From Asaia platycodi JCM 25414 (lineage in GTDB: Bacteria > Pseudomonadota > Alphaproteobacteria > Acetobacterales > Acetobacteraceae): a stretch of DNA of 64,000 nt. The DNA lies in contig NZ_BAKW01000001.1 of the NCBI RefSeq assembly GCF_000614545.1, positions 248,001 to 312,000 of the forward strand, written 5' to 3'. Made by a program: the position numbers and the translations under genes. The notes beneath the pieces were generated by a model that saw only the letters and a list, made by a program, of their open reading frames with translations, did not search any database and had not been told where the DNA came from. Below are positions 13,449-63,927 of this stretch, piece after piece (positions within the stretch are counted from its first letter, which is position 1; each line of letters starts with the position of its first letter).

Positions 13449-15077
13449 CACGCAGCACCGATCCGTCTTTCGGCGCGAGATAGAGCGGTGTGGCGTCGGG
13501 CTGACTCTTGAAGTCGAACAGCCCGTCCATATCCTGCGCATCCTGATCAAAAGACCCGCCGCCAAGACGTGCGCCTTCAAGGAAGTTGTTCTCGATAAAG
13601 CGCAGAACCGAGCTTTGCGTCAGCAGGGTATGATCGATCGCATTCGGGCGTGCCCAGGGTGAAAGAACCAGAAGCGGTGTGCGCGTACCGGGGCCGCAGC
13701 GTCCGTTTACCGGGGCGTTCTTCACCCCAGCCGACGGGGCTCCCTTGCCACACTGGCCGGGCGCGTTGAGCTGGTCGGCCTGCATGTCATGCGAGCTGTG
13801 CTGCACAGGCGTATAGGCGTGGTCATACCAGCCATCGGAATCATCATAGGCAATGATGATGGCCGTATCCTTCCATTCCGGTCGCGACTGGATGAAATTG
13901 ACCACACGCACCATGCCTTCCTGCTCGTCCAGCGGGTCGGAATAGCCGGCATGGGCATCCTGAAAGGCCGGGAGCTTCAGGAACGACACCGCCGGCATAT
14001 GGCCCGCATTGGTAGCGGCGATGAAATCATCCAGATCATATTCATGGTTGGCAGGGTCTTTTGTCTTGCCATCCACACCCATGGTCTGACCGATGGCCGC
14101 CACACCTGAGGGGCGCAGATGCTTCGGGTTGGACGTGCTGGGGTAATACTGAAACCAGTTGTGATGCGGGATGTAGTCAACCACTGTCTGCGCCACGACG
14201 GTCGAATAGGTGGCGCGCTGGCAGCCGCTCGTGCCATTGCGGTTATGCTGCGAGAGATCGAACCCCGCCATGAACCCGCCCCAGCTTACGCCCTTGGCGT
14301 TCAGCAGATCGCCGATATTGCGGCCTTCCATCCAGACCTGCTCACCCGGCACCGAACAGACATCGCCCGTCGGGTCGATATCGTTGATCATGGTCATGCC
14401 GCCTTGCCCGTCATTGATGAAAGGCGAGACCGCATCACGCGTCGAGGCTTCTGCGAAGAGGCCGTGATATGCAGCCCGTTGGTCTGACCGGAAACGATCT
14501 CAAGCGCGCCGGGCGTCGAGGGGCCATAGGTGTCGGTATAGGCGTTGTCGCTCATGGCAAAACGCTGCGCGTAGCGCCAGAGCGCGGTCACGGTGTTGCC
14601 GTCGAAATATCCCATGACCTGCCCGCGCGTGGCAAAAGCCCCGACGCCACCGGGCGAGCCCCGGCCTGTATGCAATGGAAAGAGATCGGCCTTGCCATTG
14701 TGATAGGCCATCTGCTCGGCTGTGTAGCCGTGATTCTGGTCTGCCGTGCTGGCCTGCGTCCGGTCGAGGCGGAAAGGAAGCGCCGCATCGGCCCCATTGG
14801 CCGGATTGGTATTGGGGTTGGTCACCAGCAAATTCGATCGCAGCAGCGTATTGGCTGGCGGCGTACCAAGTCTGGGTAGAAATACCGGCTCGCCTTCAGG
14901 ATTGGCGGCCTGCGGATAGGTGGCAAAGTAGTGATCGAACGAGACGTTCTCGTCAAAGATCACCACCACATGCTTGATCGGCGTTTTCGTCTGCGTCTCG
15001 GCCCGGGCCTGGAGGGGGGCGCTCAGGCAGGTGAGGGCGAGAAGGGCGGAGGCGAAAGAACGGATCGGAAAACTCAT
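13429..15077 (-). CDS. Secreted phosphoesterase, acid phosphatase AcpA / phospholipase C type (frameshifted)
   Basis: A member of the PF04185 phosphoesterase family of about 549 residues. The chosen ATG at 15077 gives a classical signal peptide (MSFPIRSFASALLALTCLSA, cleavage after QARA). The metal-binding N-terminal motif HVVVIFDENVSFDHYFATYP is directly after it. Further conserved segments are NDIDPTGDVCS, the DDSDGWYDHAYTP active-site region and RTPLLVLSPWARPN. One deletion near 14445 splits the frame at SSQKP/STRDAVSPFINDG. It releases phosphate from phosphomonoesters or phospholipids outside the cytoplasm; which substrate cannot be told. The following di-haem peroxidase overlaps its end, and I recall this pairing from other proteobacteria. 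Confidence 0.88.
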
Positions 15078-16980: not shown

Positions 16981-19216
16981 TCAGTTAAACCCCGCCGATA
17001 TCCCTGCGAAAACACCAAACCCATCCCCGGGCTGGAAAGCTGCGAGCTGTTTGCCTGCGGCAATATAGCCCGGCACGACGATGGAGGCGTAATGAGTGTT
17101 TGCGAGATTGTTGAACGACAGGAAAACCTGCCGGTGCTTGTGCGGCCAGTCATAGCCTATTGTCGTGTTGAAGATATGATAAGACGGCGCAAAATACGTG
17201 TCGTCATATGAGCCCGAGACCTTCGACGACACCTGCGTATTGAAATTGGCATAGAGCCCGTTCTTTAGATCGAGCGTATCTCGCCTGATAGAAATGGGCC
17301 GGAATGCCGGGCAGCGCGTTGCGGCCAAAGACGGCGTCGTGTTTGAAATGGAAATCCTGCCAGGTATAGGACTGTCTCAGCCCGAGCTTGCCGCCCGACC
17401 ACTTGATGAGATCGGTTTCGAGCGAAGCCTCGACCCCCTGGTGTGTCGTCGGGCTGGCGTTGGAGTAGGTGGTGGCGCCGTAAAGCTGTGAGAGCGGTGT
17501 CATAACCGTCAGCAGCTCATTACGCACGTCGGAATAGTAATAGGAAACGCTCCAGCGATTGTTCTTCCACTCGCCGCGCGTACCGACTTCATAGGTCGTG
17601 GCTGTCTGGTTATCCAGCTTCACACCCGAAGCATTAAGCCCCTGCGCCGGGCCGGAGGTGTAAAGTGCGCCAGAGAGAAGCTGCCAGTCATTGGGTGGCT
17701 GAAAGCTGCGGCTCACATTGCCGTAAATCGATACATGCGGCGAAATAACATAGCGAAAGCCGCCGCGCGGGGTGAAGCCAAGCCCGGATGTGCTGACCGA
17801 ACTCGTCGTCGGATAGGCGACATCCATCGATCGCTGCACGAAATCGAGCGCACCCGCGGCGGTGAGCCAGAAATTATGGAAGAGCTCGAAATTGTTCCGG
17901 ATGTGGAAGTAGTTATCAGTGCCGCCGTAATCCGAATGGCGCAGAACAGTGCCGAAGGGGATCTTGCATAAATGCCGGTTGTGGTGCGTGAGCGGTTGGT
18001 CTGCCAGGCTTCGAGATCGGTATAGGTGTCGATGCCGAAAAGCGTCTCGCTCTTATGACCCCAAAGCTTGTCGTTACGGATGTAGCGCACCACGCCTGCA
18101 ACGGTCTTGTAGCCCCAGCGCTGGGCGGTTGCCGTGTTCTGGATATCGATTGGCGCATCCTGATAGTCGAAACCGAGTTCCAGTTTTGATTTGTCATCAA
18201 TGCGTATGGTCGTCATGTCGCCATAGAATTTGCTGCCGGGCTGAATGCGATGGCCGTGCAGCGTGGCGTAGAGCGCCTGCGCCTGTTTCGGATTGGTCTC
18301 GATCTGGTCTCGCGTCAGATAGCCGGGATAGCCATTCTGCGTCTGGCGATAACGAAAGAACAGACGGGTCGAGACATTGTCGTTGAAGCGATAGCCGTAA
18401 TTGGCGTTCACGCCAAAGCTGCTTGCCGCTGTCTGGGCCTGATAACCACCACGATAGGATTTGGTGACGCTGATATAATAATCGGATTTTCCGATGACCG
18501 CACCAGAGCTGATCTGTTGCTTGTTGTAATTGAAGCTGCCCGCCTCGACACGGGCCTGAAAATGATCGGCCGTATAACCTGTCGGAGTGACGTAATTGAT
18601 GGCGCCACCCAACTGCACGCCACCGTAATCGAAGGCATTCGCGCCACGAAGCACTTCGGTATATTGAATGCCCAGCGTCTCGAAAAGCTCATAGGGCGTG
18701 CCTGCCGGGGTCGTAACCGGTAGACCGTCGAACATCATCAATATGCCCGAGCGGAAATAATTCGTGCCGGTCTGGATGCCCGAGCCGCGAATGGAAAGGC
18801 GCAACCCATCGCCGCCGCCAGAGCTTTGGGCGAAAACACCTGGCTGGAATGCCAGAATATCGGCATTGGTCAGATTGCGGCTGCGCAGCACTTCCTTGGA
18901 ATTGATGACCGATACCCCGCCCGGCACCGTATCGAGCTGGCGTGTGGCTGCAGCAGCAGGGGAGAGGCGCTGTTGCGAAACGGTGATGGATTCAGTCGAG
19001 GGTTTAAGGGCCGGATTTCTACCTGCCGGTTTGGCGGGAGCCGTCGCTGCGCGGGTCGATGCGGCATGGCGCGTCTTGCTGCTGTCTTTCGCCGCAAGTT
19101 CGGCTGCAAACGCGCTTCATGGGGGAGCAGGCTCATGCCGGTGAGAAGCACCAGCGAATTGGCGCCAAGAAGAGCGCGTCGGGAGAGAGAAAATCAGATC
19201 GGTGGCGGCGTTTCAT
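16981..19216 (-). CDS. TonB-dependent outer-membrane receptor (frameshifted at least four times)
   Basis: About 745 residues are reconstructed from ATG 19216 (MKRRHRSDFLS...). A signal-like segment (LLGANSLVLLTGMSLLP) is followed by a linker and a likely TonB box (ESITVSQQRL). The plug domain carries TVPGGVSVINSKEVL, ILAFQPGVFAQSSGGGDGLR, LSIRGSG and YGGVQLGGAINYVTPTG, and the beta-barrel ends in IPAHFYQARYA, NFNTQVSSKVSGSYDDTYF and GVFAGISAGFN with a C-terminal aromatic-poor strand. Breaks lie near 19183, 19114, 17957 and 17283. The plug is of the FecA/siderophore class, but position downstream of the sulfur operon leaves open a sulfonate- or sulfate-ester-related substrate. It is the last gene in that direction, after a hairpin at 19359-19388. 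Confidence 0.87.
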
Positions 19217-19358
19217 TGGGTCGATGTCCGTTCGAGCGATGAGTAAAAACCAGGTAAAAAGGCGCGGACGAACATCGTGATTGGGCAGCGAAAAGCGGTG
19301 AGGTGCAGTTTTTCATTATGTCAGCCCTTTCCGGTTGGGATCTGTTTGAGGGGGAGAG

Positions 19359-19388
19359 GGCGCAGCCAGTCTATGGAGAGGCTGCGCC
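19359..19388 (-). terminator. Perfect 9-bp inverted repeat after the MFS gene
   Basis: GGCGCAGCC (19359-19367) and GGCTGCGCC (19380-19388) form a perfect nine-base stem with a 12-base loop, starting 12 bases past the MFS stop codon. There is no T-run on the coding strand, so it may be a weak or factor-dependent terminator, or an mRNA-stabilising hairpin that sets different levels of transporter and receptor mRNA. The rest of the 183-base gap before the TonB receptor start shows no gene. Confidence 0.5.
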
Positions 19389-19399
19389 ACCGGGAGGAC

Positions 19400-20885
19400 T
19401 CACACGCCGCGTCCTGAGGGGCAGAGCGTTTCATGCGGCAGGGAACGACGAGAGGTGTCGAGCGCGCGTTCCAACGCCTTGTCGCTATCGGCGTCGTAGC
19501 CGAAGACCTCCCAGCGCAGGACGAGATGCAGCGCGATACCGACGACAGGGGCGATCAGAATGACCCAGAAGATCGTCGTGCCCATTGAGGTGAAGGCCGA
19601 GGGCAGCGCCCACATGCTCAATGTCCCGGCAAACCCGGCGACGAAATTGGTGAAGCCAATGCCCGTGCCACGCAGTTCGGTCGGGTAGCTGAGCGTCGGA
19701 TACACCATTTGCTGGCAGCCAGGGCCGAAACCCTGAGCAAACAGAAAGGCGGCAAATCCTGTCATGACCAGCACGATACCGAGCGTAGAATGCGGCGTGC
19801 CGATAAGCGCGAGGAGCAGAATGCCGACGCATTGCAGCGCGTAACCGGCCAGCGTGATCGGACGAGAGCCGAAAGAGCGGGTTAGGCGTACACCCAGCAA
19901 GCCGCCACTCAGCGCGAAAACCAGATTGAGCGCGATCGAGACGACCAACACCTGCGTGCGGTTGAGATGCAGCATGGTGCTCAGCAGGCTCGGCGCACCG
20001 AAAGCAATAGCGGCGTAAGACGTGGCGCTGACGATCTTCATACCAATCACCAAAATCGTGCGGCGCAGCAACGGCGCGCGCAGCAGAGCCAGAAGACCGG
20101 GAGAGGGGGCACGCGGGGGCGTGACCGTGATCTGGAGTATCGGGTCGATTCCATGCGTCTTGCGCAGGATAATGGCGGCTTTTTCCAGATCGCCGTGACG
20201 TGCCGCCCAGATCGGCGATTCACTCATATAGCGGCTGCGCACCAGAATGATGATCAGCGCGGGCACGGCGCCGAAGCCAGAGAGGCACGCCACAACCAGT
20301 CGGGATGGCTGGCGGGCACGACCGCGTTGAGTGCAAAGACGATCAGAAAGCAGGCAGAAGACGCCGCATACCAGGTGGGGCACCACGCTGCAGCGCGTCC
20401 GGCCTTGCTGCCCTTGCCGGAGAGCCTGGAGAATTCAGAAAGAAAAGCCATGGCGACAGGCAGATCCATCCCGACGCCGAACCCCATGGCAAAGCGCGCC
20501 AGAATGAGAATGCTGGCCGTCGGAGCCGCCGCGGCGACCAGAGCGGCGATTACGAAGCAGGCCATATCGGCCATGAAAACGGCATAGCGCCCGATACGGT
20601 CGGTCAACCACCCGCCCGACAGGCTGCCGATAATCGTGCCTGCGCTCATGGCTGCCGCGACCATGCCGGTTTCGGACCCCGAAAGGCCGAAATATTTCTG
20701 CACGTCGCCAATACTATAAGAGAGAGTCGTCAGATCATAGGCATCGAGAAACACACCGCCGAGCGCGAGCATGACGATGATATTCGCATGTCCCTGCCTG
20801 TCGGCCCCTGATTGACGAGGGCGGCGATGTCATCGGCCGTGCGGATGACAGGGCGGGCGGTATGATGAGGGGGCAGGGCACTCAT
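19400..20885 (-). CDS. MFS transporter, sugar-porter type (frameshifted twice)
   Basis: About 495 residues with twelve predicted membrane helices. The signature between helices 2 and 3, GGWLTDRIGRY, and the helix-4/5 region RFAMGFGVGMDLPVAMAFLS identify the major facilitator superfamily. The cytoplasmic loop between helices 6 and 7 includes SRYMSESPIWAARHGDLEKA, as in sugar-porter-like carriers of organic anions. Deletions lie near 20800 (after NQGPTGR) and near 20275. The ATG at 20885 overlaps the stop of the preceding FAD/NAD(P) gene in an ATGA, so it is the fifth gene of the sulfur operon. By context the substrate may be a sulfonate or other organosulfur compound. Export of a desulfonated product is an alternative. 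Confidence 0.82.
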
Positions 20886-22303
20886 GAGCGCACCTCGTCT
20901 GAGAAAACATACCGGCTTTGCGGCACCAGGGCTGCGAGGGTGCCCGCCACTGACTGGGCGTTCTCTGTTACTTCGGGCAGTCCCATCAATTCGCCGAACT
21001 GGCCACGTGACAGCGGCCCGGCAATCAGCAGATCGGGGATGCTCCGTGTGCCGACACGCGCATGATGATCCGCCCCGGTATGAATGCCGAGCCCGACAGG
21101 ATCAGCTTCGAGAAGGCCTGCCTCGGCAAGAGCCCGCAGATAGGGCGTATGACGGACGATTCCGGCATGGTTGGGGCCAGTCGTGTTGATCACATGATCG
21201 ACAAACCGTGTTTCCTCAAGGCCTCCCCTGTTTTTGAGAGTCAGGAGGACCCCCTCAGGCCTGATCTCTGCTGACAGGAGTCTGGCAGCCTTGAGGGTGA
21301 GATGTCCTTCCCTCAGACGCGATTCAAGAATGCGATCCAGTTGTGGCGCAATGCGAAAGCGGTGCACGTCCCAGAAGGGCCTGAGATGGCGGATCAGCCT
21401 GCGGCGTTCGACATTGTTCAGCGCCCCCCAGAGCCCACGTCCCTGTCTGCGCACCGCATCGATGATTTCGTGCCATGAGAGATCTCTATGGTCCCGCAGA
21501 GCAGAGCGGATGCGTCGCAGCAACAAGCGCCGTTGGGGAAGGAATGAGCCTTAATATGTCCGACAGCGCCGAAGCCTGCGGAGCATGGGCACGCGGGCGC
21601 AGGCCCCGTCTGGAGAAAGCCAGAATCTCGCCCTTGTGGCCACGCGCCGTCAGGCTTGCCACGATATCGGCCATGGTGAGTCCCGTGCCGATGATGGCAA
21701 CACGGTCGTGAGGGGCAACGCGCGAGAGGGCGTCATCACGCCAGGGATTGCCAATGATCTGTGGCTTCTGAGCCAATAGCGCCAACGGGGTGGGGAGTGA
21801 GGGGCTGGATGGGTGGTGGCGAGCACCAACCTTTGCGCCACAAGAGACGTGCCATCACTGGCGACGATTTTCCAGTTCTGCCCTTCGCGCGTTACGTTTT
21901 CTGCTGTGCCGTGCAGATGCCGCAGCCTCCCTGTCTCCAGATAGGGTGCAAGACGCGCTGCCAGATAGAGACCGAACAGCGCCCGGGAAGGATAGAGATC
22001 GCCCGATGGCAGAAAAGCATCGGGGTCGATCGCGGCCAGGGCATCGAGGTCGAGCCAGTCGCGGAAATCACCTGGCTTTTCGGTCTGCAGGCTCATGCGC
22101 GAGGCAGGTACGTTGATACGATGCTGCGGGTCGTTCGTGCCATAGGCCTGCCCTGCGCCAAGCCTCTCACGCGGCTCGATGATGGTCACACCATGGCGGC
22201 CCAGATCGGGGCGGTGACGCAGCACATGCCAGGCCACCATCGCGCCGGTCGCGCCGCCGCCGATGATCACGATCGGGATTGGGGTGTCTGAGGGCGCCGT
22301 CAT
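20882..22303 (-). CDS. FAD/NAD(P)-binding oxidoreductase, YdhS-like (frameshifted twice)
   Basis: About 473 residues. The N-terminus has a dinucleotide-binding fold ([20 protein letters not shown], GxGxxG form GGGATG) and a second nucleotide motif [20 protein letters not shown] in the middle, as in the 'FAD-NAD(P)-binding' family that includes E. coli Ydh[20 protein letters not shown] is the typical conserved segment of this family. The frame breaks near 21790 and near 21535. It overlaps ssuD upstream (22300-22303) and the MFS gene downstream by four bases each. Two flavin monooxygenases are in the same operon but no SsuE-type flavin reductase is present. A role in supplying reducing power to them is a plausible guess, not shown by the sequence. 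Confidence 0.8.
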
Positions 22304-23526
22304 GAGGAAGAGACCCGGCCCGGTCGGTGGCTACCTGCAATGGTTTCGCCAAACGGTCCCATATTGCTGCTGGCCTGTGCCGCACGCACGGGGTGGGAGG
22401 TCGGCAGGAGCGGCAGAACCAGTTCGCCAAAGCGATAGGCCTCTTCGAGATGCGGATAACCGGAGAGGATGAAACTGTCACATCCGGCGCGTCTGTATTC
22501 GTCCATACGCTCGGCGATGGTTGCCGGGTCGCCCACAAGTGCCGTGCCGGCCCCGCCGCGCACCAGCCCTACACCGGCCCAGAGATTGGGACTGATTTCG
22601 AGCTTGTCGCGACGGCCGCCATGCAGCGCGCTCATGCGCGCCTGCCCTACGGAATCGAGACGCGAGAAAACCGATTGCGCCTCGGCGATGGTCGAGTCAT
22701 CGAGCTTCGAGATCAGCCGATCCGCCTCGCGCCAGGCTTCTGCCGTGGTCTCGCGCGCGATGACATGAAAGCGTATGCCGAAACTGACGTCGCGCCCTGC
22801 TTTGGCCGCTTCCTCGCGCACGCGGCTGATCTTCTCGCGCACCAGTGCCGGGGGTTCGCCCCAGGTCAGATATTTCTGTACGCGTCGTGCGGCGATATCG
22901 ATCCCGACATCCGATGACCCGCCGAAATAGAGCGGCGGTCCATTTTCCTGATGCGGGGGAAAGAGCAGGCGGCCGTCTTCGATACGAAAATGCGGCCCCT
23001 CATGGGCAACGGTCTCTCCGCGCAGCAGGCGGGAATAGATGTCGAGAAATTCGTCCGTGATGGCGTAACGCGTGGCATGATCGTGGAACAGCCCATCGCC
23101 GCCATTCTCGCGCGGATCTCCGCCTGTGACGACATTGATCAACAGCCGCCCGCCCGAAAGCCGGTCGAGCGTTGCCGTCATGCGTGCGGCCAGTGTCGGC
23201 GATTGCAGGCCCGGACGCACGGCAACGAGAAACTTCAGACGCTCGGTGGAGGTGACGAGTGCCGAGGCCACGACCCAGCTATCTTCGCAGCTTCGGCCCG
23301 TTGGCAGCAGAACACCGTAATAGCCCAGTGAATCCGCAGCGCGAGCGATCTGTTGCAGATAGGGCAGATCGACCGCCCTTCCGCCTTCGCTGGTGCCGAG
23401 ATAGCGGCTATCGCCATGGGTCGGCAGAAACCAGAGCACATTGATCTTCTCCGGAGCGCTCTTCTCGCGGGTATTGTCACCCGAAACGGTCTTTTCAGAA
23501 ACAGCGTTGAACGGGATCGTGGTCAT
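22300..23526 (-). CDS. ssuD: FMNH2-dependent alkanesulfonate monooxygenase SsuD
   Basis: SsuD uses reduced FMN and oxygen to cleave alkanesulfonates into aldehyde and sulfite. The intact 408-residue protein is slightly longer than the 380 of E. coli, with an extra N-terminal ~27 residues. Family signatures include [51 protein letters not shown] with the active-site-adjacent [13 protein letters not shown], and [16 protein letters not shown]. The late [20 protein letters not shown] is strongly SsuD-like. It overlaps the genes on both sides by four bases. There is no ssuABC importer or ssuE reductase beside it, unlike the classical ssuEADCB operon. Confidence 0.92.
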
Positions 23527-25027
23527 GACAGGGCGCTCTCTTTCTGGGCGTTATGAATCGGGGTGCCATTGTTCCGCTTGGGCACAATGGGGGCTTCGGC
23601 GCGAAGGCCGCTTTCGGGCGCGGGTGTAGGGGCAAAGCCTCCGCGATGAGCCGCCGCAGGATGGCTGTCTGGCAAACGATCGCGTCCCGTCAGGCGATGA
23701 CGCAGTGTTTCACCAGCCTGTGCGGGTGCGGGCAGGCGGCCGCGGCGACGCAATTCCGGCGCGATGAGCGCCGCGTAATCATCGAGCGTTTCGAAGCTGT
23801 GATACTGGCGCAGATTGATGCCATCGATCCCGTCTTCATCGAGCCAGATCTCGAGTGCATCGGCGATCTGCTCCGGCGTGCCGACCGCAAAAAAACGACC
23901 CTCGTCAAAGCTGCCGATCTGTTCCAGCGCGGCGCCTATAGTCAGTTCGATGCCGAAGCGACGCCCCATATTGCCGAGGCTGCGCCCGCTCTGGGCCAGA
24001 GCCTGACCGATGGTGATCGACGGATCGAACTGGCGCAGATCGATCTCGGCCTGAGCATGAACAAGAGCGCCCTCAATGCTGTAATATTGCCGATAGCGCG
24101 CGAGTTTCGCCTGCGCCTCTGCTTCCGTACGTCCGGCGATCAACCCGGCCATCACATAGAATTTCAGCTCGGCAGGGTCGCGCCCCTGGGCGGCGGCTTC
24201 TGCCTCGTGCGGGCGATATGGGCACGCACTTCTTCCTGTGTGCGGCCGCCGATGAAAATCGCTTCGGCATGACGGGCAGCGGTCTTCAGGCCGCGCGCAG
24301 AACCGGTGGCCTGAAACAGCACAGGCGTGCGTTGCGGCGTCGGCTGGACCAGATGGGGCCCTTCCACACGAAAATGCGGCCCCTCATGATTTATGTGATG
24401 CACACGGGAAGGGTCGGCATAGCGGTCTGACGCGCGGTCCTGGATCACTGCGTCTTCCTGCCAACTCCCTTCCCAGAGCTTGTAGAGCACGTCGAGATAT
24501 TCGTCGGCACGGTCATAGCGGCTGTCATGCTCAAGCTCGCCATCAAGACCGAAATTGCGGGCAGCATTCGGCAGATAGGAGGTGACGACATTCCAGCCCA
24601 CCCGTCCATTGGTGAGCAGATCGAGCGTGCTCATGCGGCGTGCGAATGAGAAAGGCGGTTCGTAGGTGGTCGAGAATGTCGCGGCGAAGCCGAGCGTTTC
24701 GGTCACCGCAGCCATGGCCGGGATGAGCGAGAGCGGGTCGAGATTGGGGATCTGCAGCCCCAGACGCAAAGAGGCATCGAGCCCGCCGAACCGGTCATAG
24801 ATCCCGATCACATCGGCCAGAAAGATCGCATCCATTCCGGCAGCTTCGGCGCGTCTGGCTGTGTCCAGCCAATAGGCCATTTCGCCAAAGCGGTGGCGGT
24901 TATTACATTCCTCGCGCCACATGCCATGCACGATATGGCTCACACAGGCCATTTCGAAGAGATTGACGTGCAGGGTCTTGCGGGTGCCGGTTGATGAATG
25001 ATCCGGCTGGCGCGAGGAAAGTGTCAT
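23523..25027 (-). CDS. NtaA/SnaA/DszA-family FMN-dependent monooxygenase (frameshifted)
   Basis: A luciferase-like class C monooxygenase of about 500 residues. Conserved features are [70 protein letters not shown] and [20 protein letters not shown], all characteristic of the nitrilotriacetate/dibenzothiophene-sulfone/dimethylsulfide monooxygenase group. One deletion near 24185 separates ARTRQ from the continuation (...[19 protein letters not shown]). The C-terminal 60 residues (proline- and arginine-rich) look like an unstructured extension. It is coupled by ATGA overlaps to the SfnB-like gene before it and ssuD after it. A role in oxidising an organosulfur compound such as a sulfone or thioether is likely from context. 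Confidence 0.87.
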
Positions 25028-26259
25028 GCGGCTTCTCCTGTGCGACGGCTTTCGGCTAGTCGGCGCAAACCGTCGCGATAGGGTGTCCAGAGGCGCGTGC
25101 CGTTTAACGCCACGTCACCGAGTTCGCGCTGGCGCTGTGCTGCCGGGTTATGCGAGGCGAGGGTGCGGGCATTGCGCCAGTGGCGGTCTAGATCGAGTGT
25201 TTCGGAAGTGGCCGAGGCGCCCCCGACTTCGAAAAGCGTCGTGGCAGCTTCGAGTGTCTGCTGGGTGATGATCTGCTGCGCCTTGAAGATCTGCTCCTGC
25301 GCCTGCTCGATGGCATCGTCATCATGGGCGCCAGCAAGGAACAGCGGCTCGATGGTCTCGAGCGCCTTTGCGCCCTGATCGGCGAGAACGGCAGTGGAAT
25401 AGGCGAGGGAAGACAGGCGCCCGACCACGCTTTGCACGATCGGGTCATGCCTCTGGCTGACCTTGCCCGGCACGCCGAAAACGCGCTCGCGGGGGCGAAC
25501 GAAAGTCAGTGCATCCTGCAACACGGCCTGAGCGATGCCTGCCAGTGTGGTGTTGTGGAATTGCTGATAATAGGCGCCGAGAAAAGGCTGGCTGGGCGGT
25601 GTGTCGGCGGGCGCACGCTCGATGATCTGGTCAGGGGTGAGGGGCACCTGCTCGAACAGGGTCGTGCCGCTGCCTGTCAGGCGTTGGCCGAAACCGTCCC
25701 AGTCGTCCAGCCTCGTCACACCCGCGGCCGTGGCGGGCACCAGCACCCGCACCCTGTCACCGCCGAATGTTGCCCAGACGATAATCCAGTCGGCGTACAA
25801 CGTGCCTGTCGAATAATATTTGCGCCCGTTGAGCACCAGACCGTTCGGACCATGGGTCACCTCGGTCGTCACGCTGGTCTCATTGGCGCGTTCGGCCATG
25901 GCTGCGCCGAAGATCCTGTTGTCCCGGATTAGGCCTTGCCAGGTTTCTGCCTGAGGCAATCCTGCGCGGAGCGTTTCGACAAAAGCGAAATGAGCGCGGA
26001 AAATCTGTGGAAGATTCGAATCCGCTCGCGCCAGGTTGCGCAGCTGCACAAAGCTTTCCGACAGGCTCAGCCCGTAGCCGCCCTCATTCCTGCCGAGACG
26101 CAACCGACCGAAACCGGAAGCAGCAAGTGCAGAAACAACGGCATGAGGGCGGGTCCCCTTGCGGTCGCGATCTGCCGCACCCTTTCCTATATCATCAAAA
26201 ATCTCTGTGAAACTCAACGGACGGATTCCTTGTGAAATATGGTCAATAGACGATTCCAC
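25024..26259 (-). CDS. SfnB/DszC-like acyl-CoA-dehydrogenase-fold flavin oxidoreductase
   Basis: An intact 411-residue protein with the acyl-CoA dehydrogenase fold but with features of the monooxygenase branch (DszC, SfnB). These include GFGRLRLGRNEGGYGLSLSE, ARADSNLPQIFRAHFAFVE, LNGRKYYSTGTLYADWIIVW and the late FEVGGASATSETLDLDRHWR and RNARTLASHNPAAQR. The catalytic glutamate of true acyl-CoA dehydrogenases is not evident, which supports a flavin monooxygenase or sulfur-acquisition role. The likely start is GTG at 26259; no in-frame ATG with a better ribosome site is visible. It is the first gene of the sulfur operon, directly downstream of the regulatory region shared with the divergent MocR gene. 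Confidence 0.87.
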   Translation of the reverse strand: MESSIDHISQGIRPLSFTEIFDDIGKGAADRDRKGTRPHAVVSALAASGFGRLRLGRNEGGYGLSLSESFVQLRNLARADSNLPQIFRAHFAFVETLRAGLPQAETWQGLIRDNRIFGAAMAERANETSVTTEVTHGPNGLVLNGRKYYSTGTLYADWIIVWATFGGDRVRVLVPATAAGVTRLDDWDGFGQRLTGSGTTLFEQVPLTPDQIIERAPADTPPSQPFLGAYYQQFHNTTLAGIAQAVLQDALTFVRPRERVFGVPGKVSQRHDPIVQSVVGRLSSLAYSTAVLADQGAKALETIEPLFLAGAHDDDAIEQAQEQIFKAQQIITQQTLEAATTLFEVGGASATSETLDLDRHWRNARTLASHNPAAQRQRELGDVALNGTRLWTPYRDGLRRLAESRRTGEAA

Positions 26260-26487: not shown

Positions 26488-27890
26488 ATGGCGGCCGAGG
26501 CCTGTCTCGAAGGATGGAAAATTGCTATCAGCCGCGATACGGGAGCGCTTTATCTCGCAATCGTCGAGGCCATTGCACATTCCATTCGCAAGGGAGAGTT
26601 GCAGGAAGGGAGAAGCTTCCCCCACAGCGTGTGATCGCAGCCCGTCTTGGCACCAATCTCAGCACCGTCACACGCGCAATTGCCGAAGCGCAGAAGCGCG
26701 GCTTGCTCGACGCCACCATAGGTCGCGGCACCTTTGTCAAGATCAATGCAGGCGGAGGCTCATGGCGCGCGGGCGCCGGGAGCGTCCTCGATCTGAGCAT
26801 GAACTCACCGCCTTTGCCTCGGGACCCAGGTATCCAGGCCATGATTCAGGGCGAGATCGGCGCAATTTTCAGGCAGCAGGATGCGCAGTCGCTCATGTCG
26901 TACCGCGTGACGGGCGGCACGCTGCAGGACCGTCAACTGGGCATGCAGTGGCTGTTGCCAGTTCTGGGCAGGCGACGCGCCAGCGAGATGCTGATCGTCC
27001 CCGGCGCACAGGTCGCCCTTTCGGCCATCATGAGTTCGCTCGTGAAAGCGGGCGAGACCATCGTGACCGATCTCCTGACCTATCCCGGGATGCGTTCGAT
27101 CGCCGCCCAGTTCGGCTATGTGCTGCTTGGGGTAGAGCAGGATGGAGAGGGGATGATTCCCGAGGCGCTCGAAGAGCTCTGCGCCCGTCACCGACCCCGT
27201 GTGCTCTACTGTACGCCGACGCTGCAAAACCCGACGACGGCCACATGGTCGCTGCCCCGTCGCGAGGCCATACTGGCCATTGCCCGACGCTACCAGATCA
27301 CTGTTGTCGAAGACGACCCATACAGCCTTCTGCTCAAGGCACCGCCGCCAACGCTGGCCATGCTCGACCCGACACGCGTCATTTATGTGGCCACCATGTC
27401 GAAAGTTCTGAGCCCGGGCCTGCGCACGGCCTATATCGTGCTGCCCGGCGCGGAAATGACCCGACGCATTACTTCGGGGGTGAGGGCAATCTGTCTTGCC
27501 AAGGCGGGTATTCTCGACGCGATCGTTTCACGATGGATCGAGACCGGTCTCGCACAGCACTGCCTGCGGAGTGTTCGTGAGGAGCTGACGCAGCGTCATG
27601 CGGTCATGCGTCAGATTCTGGGTGCGCGGGCGCCGGACAAGGCGCCGAGTCCGCATGTCTGGCTATCCCTCCCGGAATGGTGGAGCAGCGCTGATTTCGT
27701 GGCATTTGCTCGCCGTCAGGGGCTGGCGCTCGTGCCCAGTTCGGTCTTTACCGTCAGTGGCGATCCGCCCGCTGCCGTGCGTGTGGCTCTGGGAAGCGCG
27801 TCCGACCTTTCCGAGCTGCGAGACTCTCTGACCAGTCTGCGCTCCGTACTGGAATATCGCCCGGCAGAGGGGTTTTCGGATGTCGTCTGA
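26488..27890 (+). CDS. MocR-type regulator: GntR winged helix fused to class I aminotransferase domain (frameshifted)
   Basis: About 468 residues from ATG 26488, preceded by AGGGAGAGG. The N-terminal GntR helix-turn-helix reads LYLAIVEAIAHSIRKGELQE, then LPPQRVIAARLGTNLSTVTR. The fold-type-I aminotransferase domain follows, with the PLP lysine in ATMSKVLSPGLRTAYIVLP and the phosphate-binding region of the fold. One deletion near 26610 (GGGAG where GGGGAG is expected) splits the HTH. MocR proteins use PLP or an amino compound as ligand and often control a divergent operon. Here that is the sulfur operon, so taurine or a related amino-sulfonate is an attractive but unproven effector. Confidence 0.87.
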
Positions 27891-61634: not shown

Positions 61635-62201
61635 TCAGCGTGAGACGAGGCTGGCGGCGATCTTGTCGGCCAGTTGTTCGAAAAGCTTTTGCAACAACGC
61701 GGCCTTGGCGGCGTCATCGGCAACACTGCCCTGAACGGTGACAGAGGCGCGACCCAGAAGCGGCGGACTGGCCTCGTTGAGCGGCAACTCGGTCCAGGAA
61801 GCGATCAGAGTAGCCCGACCCTGCTGGAGCATATCCATACGTTCGATGGTAATGCCGAGACGTGACTCAGGCGTGTCGATCGGTGGATAGGCGGTGATCA
61901 TGCGCTGGGGCCAATCCTGAGACAGGCGGGCCACGATGAGATCGGTCGCCGATTGCGACAGGCGGCTGGCCCAGCGCCCATTGCTGCTTCGGATCAGACG
62001 GCTGCCGTCGCGCACCAGAATATCCTGCGTATCGAGATAATCGGGCAGCGATACGCGTGGCACGTAAGTGACCGGCGCATTTTTCTGCGCAAGCGTGACG
62101 TCGCTGGCGGTCGGGGCAATCGTATAAAACTGGACGGGCGCTGAAGCGCAGCCCGAGAGCAGCCCCAGAGCGAGTGCGGAGAAAAGGGGGCGCAGGCTCA
62201 T
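61635..62201 (-). CDS. PqiC-like ABC-transport auxiliary lipoprotein
   Basis: An intact 188-residue lipoprotein. The signal ends with the lipobox LLSGC (MSLRPLFSALALGLLSGC), and the mature domain (VQFYTIAPTASDVTLAQKNA, PRVSLPDYLDTQDILVRDGS) fits the ABC_trans_aux (DUF330) family that includes PqiC. ...RSSNGRWASRLSQSATDLIV is the typical central part. It is anchored in the outer membrane in known systems and completes a lipid-transport bridge with the MCE protein. It overlaps mlaD by four bases. Confidence 0.85.
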   Translation of the reverse strand: MSLRPLFSALALGLLSGCASAPVQFYTIAPTASDVTLAQKNAPVTYVPRVSLPDYLDTQDILVRDGSRLIRSSNGRWASRLSQSATDLIVARLSQDWPQRMITAYPPIDTPESRLGITIERMDMLQQGRATLIASWTELPLNEASPPLLGRASVTVQGSVADDAAKAALLQKLFEQLADKIAASLVSR

Positions 62202-63160
62202 TGGCGGCGTCCTGTCAGCAGAAGTTGCGGGTTGCGTTCGACATCGTTGGCAAAGCCGCGCAGCGCGGCGGCGGCAGCAGCGATATCGCGGAGGCTCGAA
62301 TCCAGATTGGCGCGGTCGATCGAGCGCGGTGAGGTGATACCCTGGAGATTGGCCATGGTCTTGTTGGCCGTGGCCATCGTGTCACGGCTCGTCTGAAGGA
62401 GTGCGTGCAGTTCCTGACCGCGGGCCGAAAGCTGGTCGCTGCCTGTCGTCGTGAGACGGTCGACACTCTGTAACGTGCGCAGCAATTGTGGCTGCAAGGT
62501 CGTCAACATTTCATGGGCGGCATCGACCGTGGCGCGGCTATGATCCGATGTCTCTTGCAAGCTGTCTGCCAGTGCGGGAAGACGCTGGTCGAGTGTCTCG
62601 GCAAGGTGATGGATCACCGCAAGGGTCGAAGCGGCATCGTCGCTGATCTGACGCAGAGGCAGATGCGTCAGCGTGTTGGTTATGGCCTGGATAGAGGATT
62701 GCCGTGTCGGAATCTCGACTTCGCTTGTCAGTTCCGGGTGCAGGACAGCGGGCGTGCCGGGCGACACGTCGAGATCGATCTGCGAGGTGCCGGTCACAAA
62801 GCTCTTCAGATTGATCTCACCACGCAAGCCGTGTGCGACCAGTTCGCCCAACCCGGGCACATGGCCATGTTTTTCTCCGGCAACGAGAATATCGTTCTGG
62901 CGGATCGTGACATAGACTGGGATGAACGCTTCACGCGTTTTCGGGTCGTATTCGATGGCGATGCGATCGACCGCGCCGACCTGAACGCCCCGGAAGTTGA
63001 CTGGTGCTCCAACGGTCAGGCCGTTCGTCGACCCGCGGAAAATCAGGACAGCCCGCTCCGTATGGGTGAAGGGATGAAAATTACCGAAGAAGACGAAGGC
63101 ACTGACCATAAGGGCCATCCCTCCGAGAACGAACGCACCGACGAGCGCCTGTCTGTTCAT
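62198..63160 (-). CDS. mlaD: MlaD-type MCE-domain substrate-binding protein
   Basis: An intact 320-residue protein with one N-terminal membrane helix (LVGAFVLGGMALMVSAFVFF) and an MCE domain (FRGSTNGLTVGAPVNFRGVQ, VGAVDRIAIEYDPKTREAFI, GLRGEINLKSFVTGTSQIDL). The C-terminal 150 residues (helical, Ala/Leu-rich, LQETSDHSRATVDAAHEMLT) extend beyond E. coli MlaD, as in longer Mce/Pqi-like proteins. MCE hexamers form a tunnel for lipids across the periplasm. It lies between the ATPase and the lipoprotein, overlapping each by four bases. Confidence 0.9.
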   Translation of the reverse strand: MNRQALVGAFVLGGMALMVSAFVFFGNFHPFTHTERAVLIFRGSTNGLTVGAPVNFRGVQVGAVDRIAIEYDPKTREAFIPVYVTIRQNDILVAGEKHGHVPGLGELVAHGLRGEINLKSFVTGTSQIDLDVSPGTPAVLHPELTSEVEIPTRQSSIQAITNTLTHLPLRQISDDAASTLAVIHHLAETLDQRLPALADSLQETSDHSRATVDAAHEMLTTLQPQLLRTLQSVDRLTTTGSDQLSARGQELHALLQTSRDTMATANKTMANLQGITSPRSIDRANLDSSLRDIAAAAAALRGFANDVERNPQLLLTGRRQ

Positions 63161-63927
63161 GATGCGTTTCCTTCTTCGTTTCGTTGTCTGTTCATGAAGG
63201 CATGAACCTGAGGGTCGGTGCAGCGATCGCGCAGCTCGCGCGGAGAGCCGAAGGCGATGGGACGCTTGGTAATGGCATCGAGAAAAATCCCGTCATCTGC
63301 GATGCTGAACAGGCTAGGGAGTTCATGGCTCACGATCACGATGGTCGCGCCGAGCCCGTCACGCAGATTGAGGATCAGATCGTCCAGGCGTGCCGAGGTG
63401 ATGGGGTCGAGCCCTGCCGAAGGTTCGTCGAAAAACAGAATATCGGGGTCAAGTGCGAGCGCGCGGGCCAGCCCCGCACGCTTGCGCATGCCACCGCTGA
63501 TCTCGGCGGGGGCGAGGTCGATTGCGTCGAGCAGTCCGACCAGAGCGAGCTTGAGCTCGACCAGACGCCTGATGGCACGCGGGCCGAGACTGGTGAACAT
63601 CTGCAGCGGCAGGGCGACATTTTCGCCAACCGTCATGGAGCTCCAGAGCGCACCGCTCTGGAACAATACGCCAAAGCGGTGATTGATTTCGGTGCGCTGT
63701 GCATCGGTGCCCGCCCAGTAATTCTCGGTGCCGACGTGAAAACTACCCGTCGTGGGGCGCAGCAGGCCGATCATGCTTTTGAGAAGGGTCGATTTACCGC
63801 AACCCGATCCACCCATGACAGCAAAGATACTGCCACGTTTGACCGAGAGAGAGATGTCGGACTGGATCACTTTCGGGCCGAAAGCCAGGGTGACATCCTG
63901 CATGGTCATGATGGGTTCCTGCACCAT
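63157..63927 (-). CDS. mlaF: MlaF-type ABC transporter ATP-binding protein
   Basis: An intact 256-residue ATPase. Walker A is GGSGCGKST, the signature is EISGGMRKRAGLARALAL (the family form SGGMRKR), Walker B is ILFFDEPSAGLDP and the switch histidine is in IVIVSHELPSLF. This signature separates MlaF/Ttg2A-type lipid transporters from ordinary importers. It begins three bases after the permease stop and overlaps mlaD by four. Confidence 0.93.
   Translation of the reverse strand: MVQEPIMTMQDVTLAFGPKVIQSDISLSVKRGSIFAVMGGSGCGKSTLLKSMIGLLRPTTGSFHVGTENYWAGTDAQRTEINHRFGVLFQSGALWSSMTVGENVALPLQMFTSLGPRAIRRLVELKLALVGLLDAIDLAPAEISGGMRKRAGLARALALDPDILFFDEPSAGLDPITSARLDDLILNLRDGLGATIVIVSHELPSLFSIADDGIFLDAITKRPIAFGSPRELRDRCTDPQVHAFMNRQRNEEGNAS

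Follow-up and report, generated by a model that had tools for sequence, protein, structure and literature searches.

The organosulfur loci closest to the one described here are the ssuEADCB operon of Escherichia coli and Pseudomonas, the dsz 4S operon, in which DszC and DszA-family enzymes are encoded side by side together with the DszB desulfinase, and the msuEDC/sfnFG genes with the dimethyl sulfide (DMS) pathway of Acinetobacter baylyi. In this last group (PMC13352529, PMC8234197), group D and group C oxygenases act in series ending in an alkanesulfonate monooxygenase, and one reductase serves several oxygenases; in A. baylyi, every oxygenase of the DMS pathway is driven by MsuE alone (PMC13352529). 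We analyzed a 64,000-bp stretch of Asaia platycodi JCM 25414 (contig NZ_BAKW01000001.1, positions 248,001 to 312,000; hereafter the window), which carries on its minus strand genes for a group D oxygenase, a luciferase-like group C monooxygenase (LLM), the alkanesulfonate monooxygenase SsuD, an FAD/NAD(P)-binding protein and a major facilitator superfamily (MFS) carrier, followed by a TonB-dependent receptor (Table 1). Our preferred interpretation, held with somewhat better than even confidence, is that this is a sulfur-scavenging operon of acetic-acid bacteria combining TonB/MFS uptake, sulfur oxidation and C-S bond cleavage with an SsuD step that frees sulfite, and drawing its FMNH2 from a reductase encoded in trans.

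Like ssuEADCB, the Asaia operon encodes an SsuD equivalog with sulfite as its presumed product; unlike ssuEADCB, it contains neither SsuE nor an ABC importer (SsuABC is encoded on another contig), and it adds two oxygenases, the FAD/NAD(P) protein, the MFS carrier and the TonB receptor. The absence of an importer and of a flavin reductase from the operon itself, noted in a preliminary description of this locus, was borne out. The operon resembles the msu/sfn/DMS systems in its group D and group C oxygenases ending in an alkanesulfonate monooxygenase and in the likely use of one reductase by several oxygenases, but its group C partner is of the NtaA/DmoA/LadA type rather than SfnG, no MsuE was found in six Asaia genomes, the candidate Asaia reductase is RutF/HpaC-like and unlinked, and the transport genes differ. 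Adjacent DszC-like and DszA-family enzymes recall the dsz operon, from which the locus departs in having SsuD in place of the DszB desulfinase (DszB was not searched for); because of this replacement, the end substrate is probably a sulfonate and not a sulfinate. A plasmid cluster of Pantoea agglomerans (NZ_CP113087) encodes the same five protein kinds, SsuD included, with identities to Asaia of 43% (FAD/NAD(P) protein), 41% (NtaA-type LLM), 51% (MFS) and 40% (DszC-like), and likewise shows no reductase match in the stretch. It differs in gene order, in having a sigma-54 regulator and an SsuA-like gene upstream, and in that no TonB receptor is annotated in the stretch shown. Searches of the open-licence literature, by title and abstract opening, gave no account of the operon, which does not prove it unpublished.

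The first five genes overlap by ATGA at 25024-25027, 23523-23526, 22300-22303 and 20882-20885. At 19216, 183 bases past the MFS stop, the TonB gene begins, and a tblastn search with the intact Asaia siamensis protein places the end of this gene near 16981. Gene order, the four overlaps and the extent of the TonB gene are all as first described.

To survey conservation of this order, we searched 150 genomes of the family, 111 of which gave some SsuD match, and opened the best 35 besides this one (at least 368 bits), adding records of Komagataeibacter saccharivorans (L005), three Asaia and one Acetobacter. The complete five-gene order occurs in four of the best 35 (L021-L024) and, over the whole set, in seven separate records other than the window (L005, L007, L008, L010, L021, L022 and L024, the last from genome G022), counting once a single Acetobacter contig represented by both L010 and L023, which agree in length and mirror each other in gene positions. 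The contig of an eighth record (L009) begins inside the operon. A TonB gene lies downstream in all seven records whose contig continues (L005, L007, L008, L009, L021, L022, L024). Because it recurs in seven distinct records, the operon order is more than chance. Among the best 35, partial arrangements comprise the first four genes plus a second LLM with no MFS match (L025), SsuD-FAD-reductase (L028) and SsuD-reductase (L029), and an SsuA relative is present in 23 of the fetched stretches, L024 included. In L024, a 219-base SsuA fragment (14684-14902), 73% identical to the SsuA of A. platycodi, lies upstream of the operon and is possibly the remnant of a classical ssu locus.

SsuD passes the TIGR03565 equivalog (599 bits against a cut-off of 518.2), and its nearest solved structures are MsuD (7jv3) and 1m41/1nqk, which we take to be E. 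coli SsuD. As read from an alignment, it has counterparts of the MsuD sulfonate-binding residues W195, R225 and R296 and of the RGGA loop, as given for MsuD (PMC8234197). The group D protein, called SfnB-like in the preliminary description, deserves that label only loosely: it scores 233 bits on the SfnB model TIGR04022, on which Sinorhizobium SfnB reaches 601, and fails as an equivalog (cut-off 430.9), as it does on the DszC model NF043015 (109 bits, cut-off 850). A search with the A. siamensis orthologue places it nearest, among solved structures, to 8cda ("probable monooxygenase"), 6u76 (MsuC) and the DszC structures 5xb8 and 4doy. The LLM passes the NtaA/DmoA model TIGR03860 (cut-off 279.7) with its N-terminal piece alone (346 bits; 459 bits for the intact A. 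siamensis protein), the A. siamensis protein fails the SfnG model TIGR04021 (89.5 bits, cut-off 382.95), and the nearest solved structures are the alkane monooxygenase 3b9n, presumably LadA (1e-126), and then DmoA (2.5e-109). The genome holds just four PF00296 matches in total, three of them inside the operon.

Taken with the sulfite reductase found in this genome, the SsuD equivalog and the MsuC/DszC-like and LadA/DmoA-like oxygenases support the originally proposed conversion of organosulfur compounds to sulfite. The TonB receptor would admit an organosulfur compound to the periplasm, and the MFS carrier would take it on into the cytoplasm. The group D enzyme would then oxidize the sulfur of a thioether or sulfinate, and the LadA/DmoA-like enzyme the carbon next to the sulfur, so that a C-S bond is broken. 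In what is the firmest step, SsuD would convert the alkanesulfonate thus formed to an aldehyde and sulfite, the latter to be taken by sulfite reductase. Judged from the protein families, a starting thioether, sulfone or sulfinate passing through a sulfonate to sulfite under sulfur starvation would fit the operon; we infer the substrate, the order of steps and the direction of transport. It is improbable that the operon instead degrades a carbon source (an alkane, aromatic acid or amine) with SsuD as an incidental member. Such a role would suit the alkane monooxygenase that is the closest solved structure to the group C enzyme, the weak likeness of the MFS carrier to aromatic acid symporters, and the adjacent MocR-type regulator. 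Against this, SsuD is a true equivalog that overlaps its neighbors by four bases within the operon, and clusters with a sulfur annotation in Sinorhizobium and Pantoea contain the same enzyme kinds.

FMNH2 for these enzymes may come from a reductase encoded elsewhere in the genome. Five flavin reductase queries gave no match in the window, and the operon lacks a PF01613 reductase gene both there and in the five other Asaia genomes. Relatives outside Asaia have such a gene within the operon: in L005, L010 and L024, the three non-Asaia records showing the complete order, a PF01613 reductase gene comes after the MFS gene. Two of these reductases, when scanned, were RutF/HpaC-like, yet below the RutF and HpaC cut-offs. 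PF01613 sequences are present in all six Asaia genomes. In each of them, and in G022, a RutF/HpaC-like PF01613 gene lies divergent from a DUF2849-CysI-DUF934 cluster (as at L018, 3801-6816). This reductase, whose position beside sulfite reductase is observed, would provide FMNH2 in trans to the operon. In a tree of 20 reductases, a single branch (92/91) splits the CysI-linked group from the operon-linked sequences, and seven other reductases form a separate group (83/93); the tree omits the frameshifted A. astilbis sequence (L062) and represents A. platycodi by its first 90 residues only. The preliminary description had held that SsuE and SsuABC encoded elsewhere and serving these enzymes would refute its own proposal. 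This applies in part: an SsuA with SsuB- and SsuC-like genes is present, as detailed below, and no SsuE or MsuE was found among ten FMN_red places in the six Asaia genomes, the A. platycodi genome being judged 85.9% complete. Nine of these places are azoreductase-, KefF/G- or ArsH-like, and one has no family; this last open reading frame (ORF; L106:1213-1797) may not be the matched frame.

The role of the FAD/NAD(P) protein was examined through its relatives and its genomic neighborhoods. PF13454 is its sole strong Pfam match, it carries two dinucleotide-binding motifs (GGGATG and GTGLT), no close solved relative was found, and an AlphaFold2 model built from three sequences (pLDDT 54) was too poor for comparison. 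A 15-sequence profile searched against the PDB matched 8cp2 first (3e-13), then a second monooxygenase, a lysine N-hydroxylase and finally ferredoxin reductases. 8cp2 is described as a class B, NADPH- and O2-dependent aspartate N-hydroxylase that carries out successive oxidations (PMC10404684). Six clusters (L005, L010, L024, L028, L079, L081) encode the FAD/NAD(P) protein and SsuD along with a dedicated flavin reductase; they include those of Sinorhizobium fredii and Paracoccus yeei, the P. yeei reductase being MsuE-like (204 bits, cut-off 212.5). SsuACB genes accompany the protein and SsuD in Paracoccus, G319 and G415, whereas in Pantoea the company consists of MFS, LLM and DszC-like genes. 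From 551 records, 40 were listed and eight neighborhoods opened; SsuD is adjacent in three, SfnB nearby in two, and neither present in three. Among 14 further neighborhoods fetched from another set of 40 places, 11 showed no SsuD, SfnB or SsuABC-type cluster with the queries used (some have generic ABC matches), so the family as a whole extends beyond sulfur clusters.

The first analysis of the locus had proposed that this FAD/NAD(P) protein may replace the missing reductase and feed the oxygenases. Its two dinucleotide-binding motifs, its position next to SsuD, the ferredoxin reductases among its profile matches and the lack of another reductase in the Asaia, Pantoea and Phyllobacterium clusters speak for such a role. 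We nevertheless rejected it, and consider it very unlikely, because six clusters have the protein alongside both SsuD and a dedicated reductase; the best profile match is the class B aspartate N-hydroxylase 8cp2, followed by a monooxygenase and a lysine N-hydroxylase, and Asaia has its RutF/HpaC-like gene by the sulfite reductase. The FAD/NAD(P) protein is thus probably not the flavin reductase; its likeliest role would be that of an additional NAD(P)H-dependent oxygenase acting on the substrate. A more specific and tentative proposal, which we rate well below even, is that the route is self-contained, that the TonB receptor and MFS carrier import a compound too large or too scarce for porins, and that the FAD/NAD(P) protein, as a class B oxygenase, performs the first sulfur oxidation ahead of the group D enzyme, the group C enzyme and SsuD.

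The same description suggested that MFS and TonB transport may take the place of SsuABC, which holds in part. In A. platycodi, an SsuA over the cut-off (218 bits against 163.5) is encoded on an unlinked contig (C20) with adjoining SsuB- and SsuC-like genes, and A. siamensis and A. astilbis carry the same trio. In the other three Asaia genomes with the operon (G085, G151 and the single-contig assembly G149), no SsuA over the cut-off was found. The MFS carrier and TonB receptor may therefore be the sole uptake route in these three genomes and need not be in the others, and uptake without SsuABC is plausible, since half of the Asaia genomes keep the operon without such an SsuA. The operon SsuD is the only SsuD match in the A. 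platycodi genome at an E-value of 1e-30 or better, and at that threshold no other match in the six Asaia genomes exceeds 36% identity; with no closer second SsuD, an unlinked SsuABC would feed the operon enzyme. These observations, and the many exporters among MFS families, would suit an arrangement in which SsuABC performs the uptake, the MFS carrier exports the aldehyde or another product, and the TonB receptor has another purpose. We regard this as unlikely: in three of the six Asaia genomes the operon is present but no SsuA exceeds the cut-off, Asaia and Komagataeibacter both keep the TonB and MFS genes at the operon, and the Pantoea cluster has an MFS carrier 51% identical to that of Asaia, though an SsuA-like gene is near there too. 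Neither the MFS nor the TonB protein exceeds an NCBIfam cut-off. The ABC genes at 62198-63927 of the window were considered as an importer and rejected, as they encode MlaD and an ABC ATPase. Further SsuA- and LLM-like copies surround SsuABC in A. siamensis (L071) and A. astilbis (L072).

Several of these observations weigh against sulfur scavenging by this operon with in trans FMNH2 and TonB/MFS uptake. The group D enzyme falls below the equivalog cut-offs for both SfnB and DszC, the group C enzyme has an alkane monooxygenase as its best solved relative, and the MocR-type regulator next to the operon is no evidence of sulfur control. SsuABC in this genome could perform the uptake, and the MFS carrier could export a product. 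In the reductase tree, L064, which belongs to neither linkage group, falls among the operon-linked sequences, and the very long branch of L057 prevents its placement. G022 holds both an operon-linked and a CysI-linked reductase, so the CysI-linked copy is not simply a moved operon copy, and the RutF/HpaC-like gene of A. platycodi is itself in pieces.

Four of the six operon genes in the window (LLM, FAD/NAD(P), MFS and TonB) are split by frameshifts into at least two pieces each. The genome (3.15 Mb) is assembled in 35 contigs; the window SsuD is 97% identical to that of A. siamensis, to which a single 47-kb stretch of the window aligns at 84.5%. In A. siamensis all six operon genes are intact, with a single open frame for each gene split here; operon genes are also split in A. 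prunellae and A. astilbis. We compared the window with A. siamensis genes of at least 200 codons recovered over 85% of their length, and found 19 of 37 to be split, 4 in the operon and 15 outside it; by the same test, the operon regions of two better Asaia assemblies have 0/11 and 0/12 split genes. Since genes outside the operon are also split and the A. siamensis operon is intact, the frameshifts are probably assembly errors. On the gene-wise test we rejected real decay of the operon in this strain, a reading that the frameshifts in four of its six genes would invite and that we hold to be highly improbable. A test on one-base gaps relative to A. siamensis was weak and is superseded by the gene-wise test: it gave 79 deletions and 43 insertions over 61 kb of the window, 12 and 4 in the operon, and 10 and 2 at the sulfite reductase locus (8.2 kb). 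A control comparison between two better assemblies gave 18 deletions and 22 insertions in 15.5 kb, so that gap density alone cannot part error from divergence and only the lean toward deletions differs. Given the 19 of 37 split genes, many genes across the whole window will be miscalled as broken.

The features of the operon and its surroundings are collected in Table 1. The divergent MocR-type regulator scores 344 bits against the EhuR model, below the cut-off of 480, and possibly controls the operon. An inverted repeat with 9-base arms (19359-19388) follows the MFS stop; read by eye, A. siamensis keeps it with one pair changed on both sides, hinting at a potential stem between the MFS and TonB genes. 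In all six Asaia genomes the 40-codon ORF is equally long and offset by the same 100 bases from the TonB ATG; among them its peptide diverges except where it covers the TonB start and at an Arg-Cys pair. The indel-free yet diverged DNA suggests a constraint on length or frame, and the ORF perhaps encodes a leader peptide. It shows no excess of synonymous changes and no NCBIfam match, no copy of its core motif turned up in the stretches from K. saccharivorans (L005) and G022 (L024), and its CGATGTYCG block, scanned over the window with one mismatch allowed, gave 5 matches against 4.83 expected by chance.

Table 1. Coordinates of the operon genes and neighboring features, numbered from the first base of the window.
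Feature	Coordinates	Strand	Remarks
DszC/MsuC-like group D oxygenase	25024..26259	-	GTG start; intact
NtaA/DmoA-family group C monooxygenase (LLM)	23523..25027	-	TIGR03860; frameshift near 24.2 kb
SsuD, FMNH2-dependent alkanesulfonate monooxygenase	22300..23526	-	TIGR03565; intact
FAD/NAD(P)-binding protein	20882..22303	-	PF13454, two dinucleotide-binding motifs; split by frameshifts
MFS carrier (Sugar_tr/MFS_1)	19400..20885	-	weakly like aromatic acid:H+ symporter group; split by frameshifts
TonB-dependent receptor	16981..19216	-	plug and barrel; split by frameshifts
MocR-type regulator, divergent	26514..27890	+	GntR and aminotransferase domains; EhuR-like
40-codon ORF	19194..19316	-	overlaps TonB start in another frame; same length in 6/6 Asaia

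Because candidates for both the reductase and the ABC importer were found elsewhere in the genome, the operon is a variation on known assimilation of the ssu/msu/sfn/DMS type, differing in its transport genes and, in Asaia, in its unlinked reductase. If the sulfur-scavenging interpretation is correct, several two-component oxygenases can share a reductase encoded beside sulfite reductase, and sulfonate uptake need not use SsuABC. The main point of interest is the FAD/NAD(P) protein, which recurs beside SsuD in several separate sulfonate clusters; if it does carry out a first sulfur oxidation, it would supply an enzyme so far missing from the organosulfur assimilation of alpha- and gammaproteobacteria.

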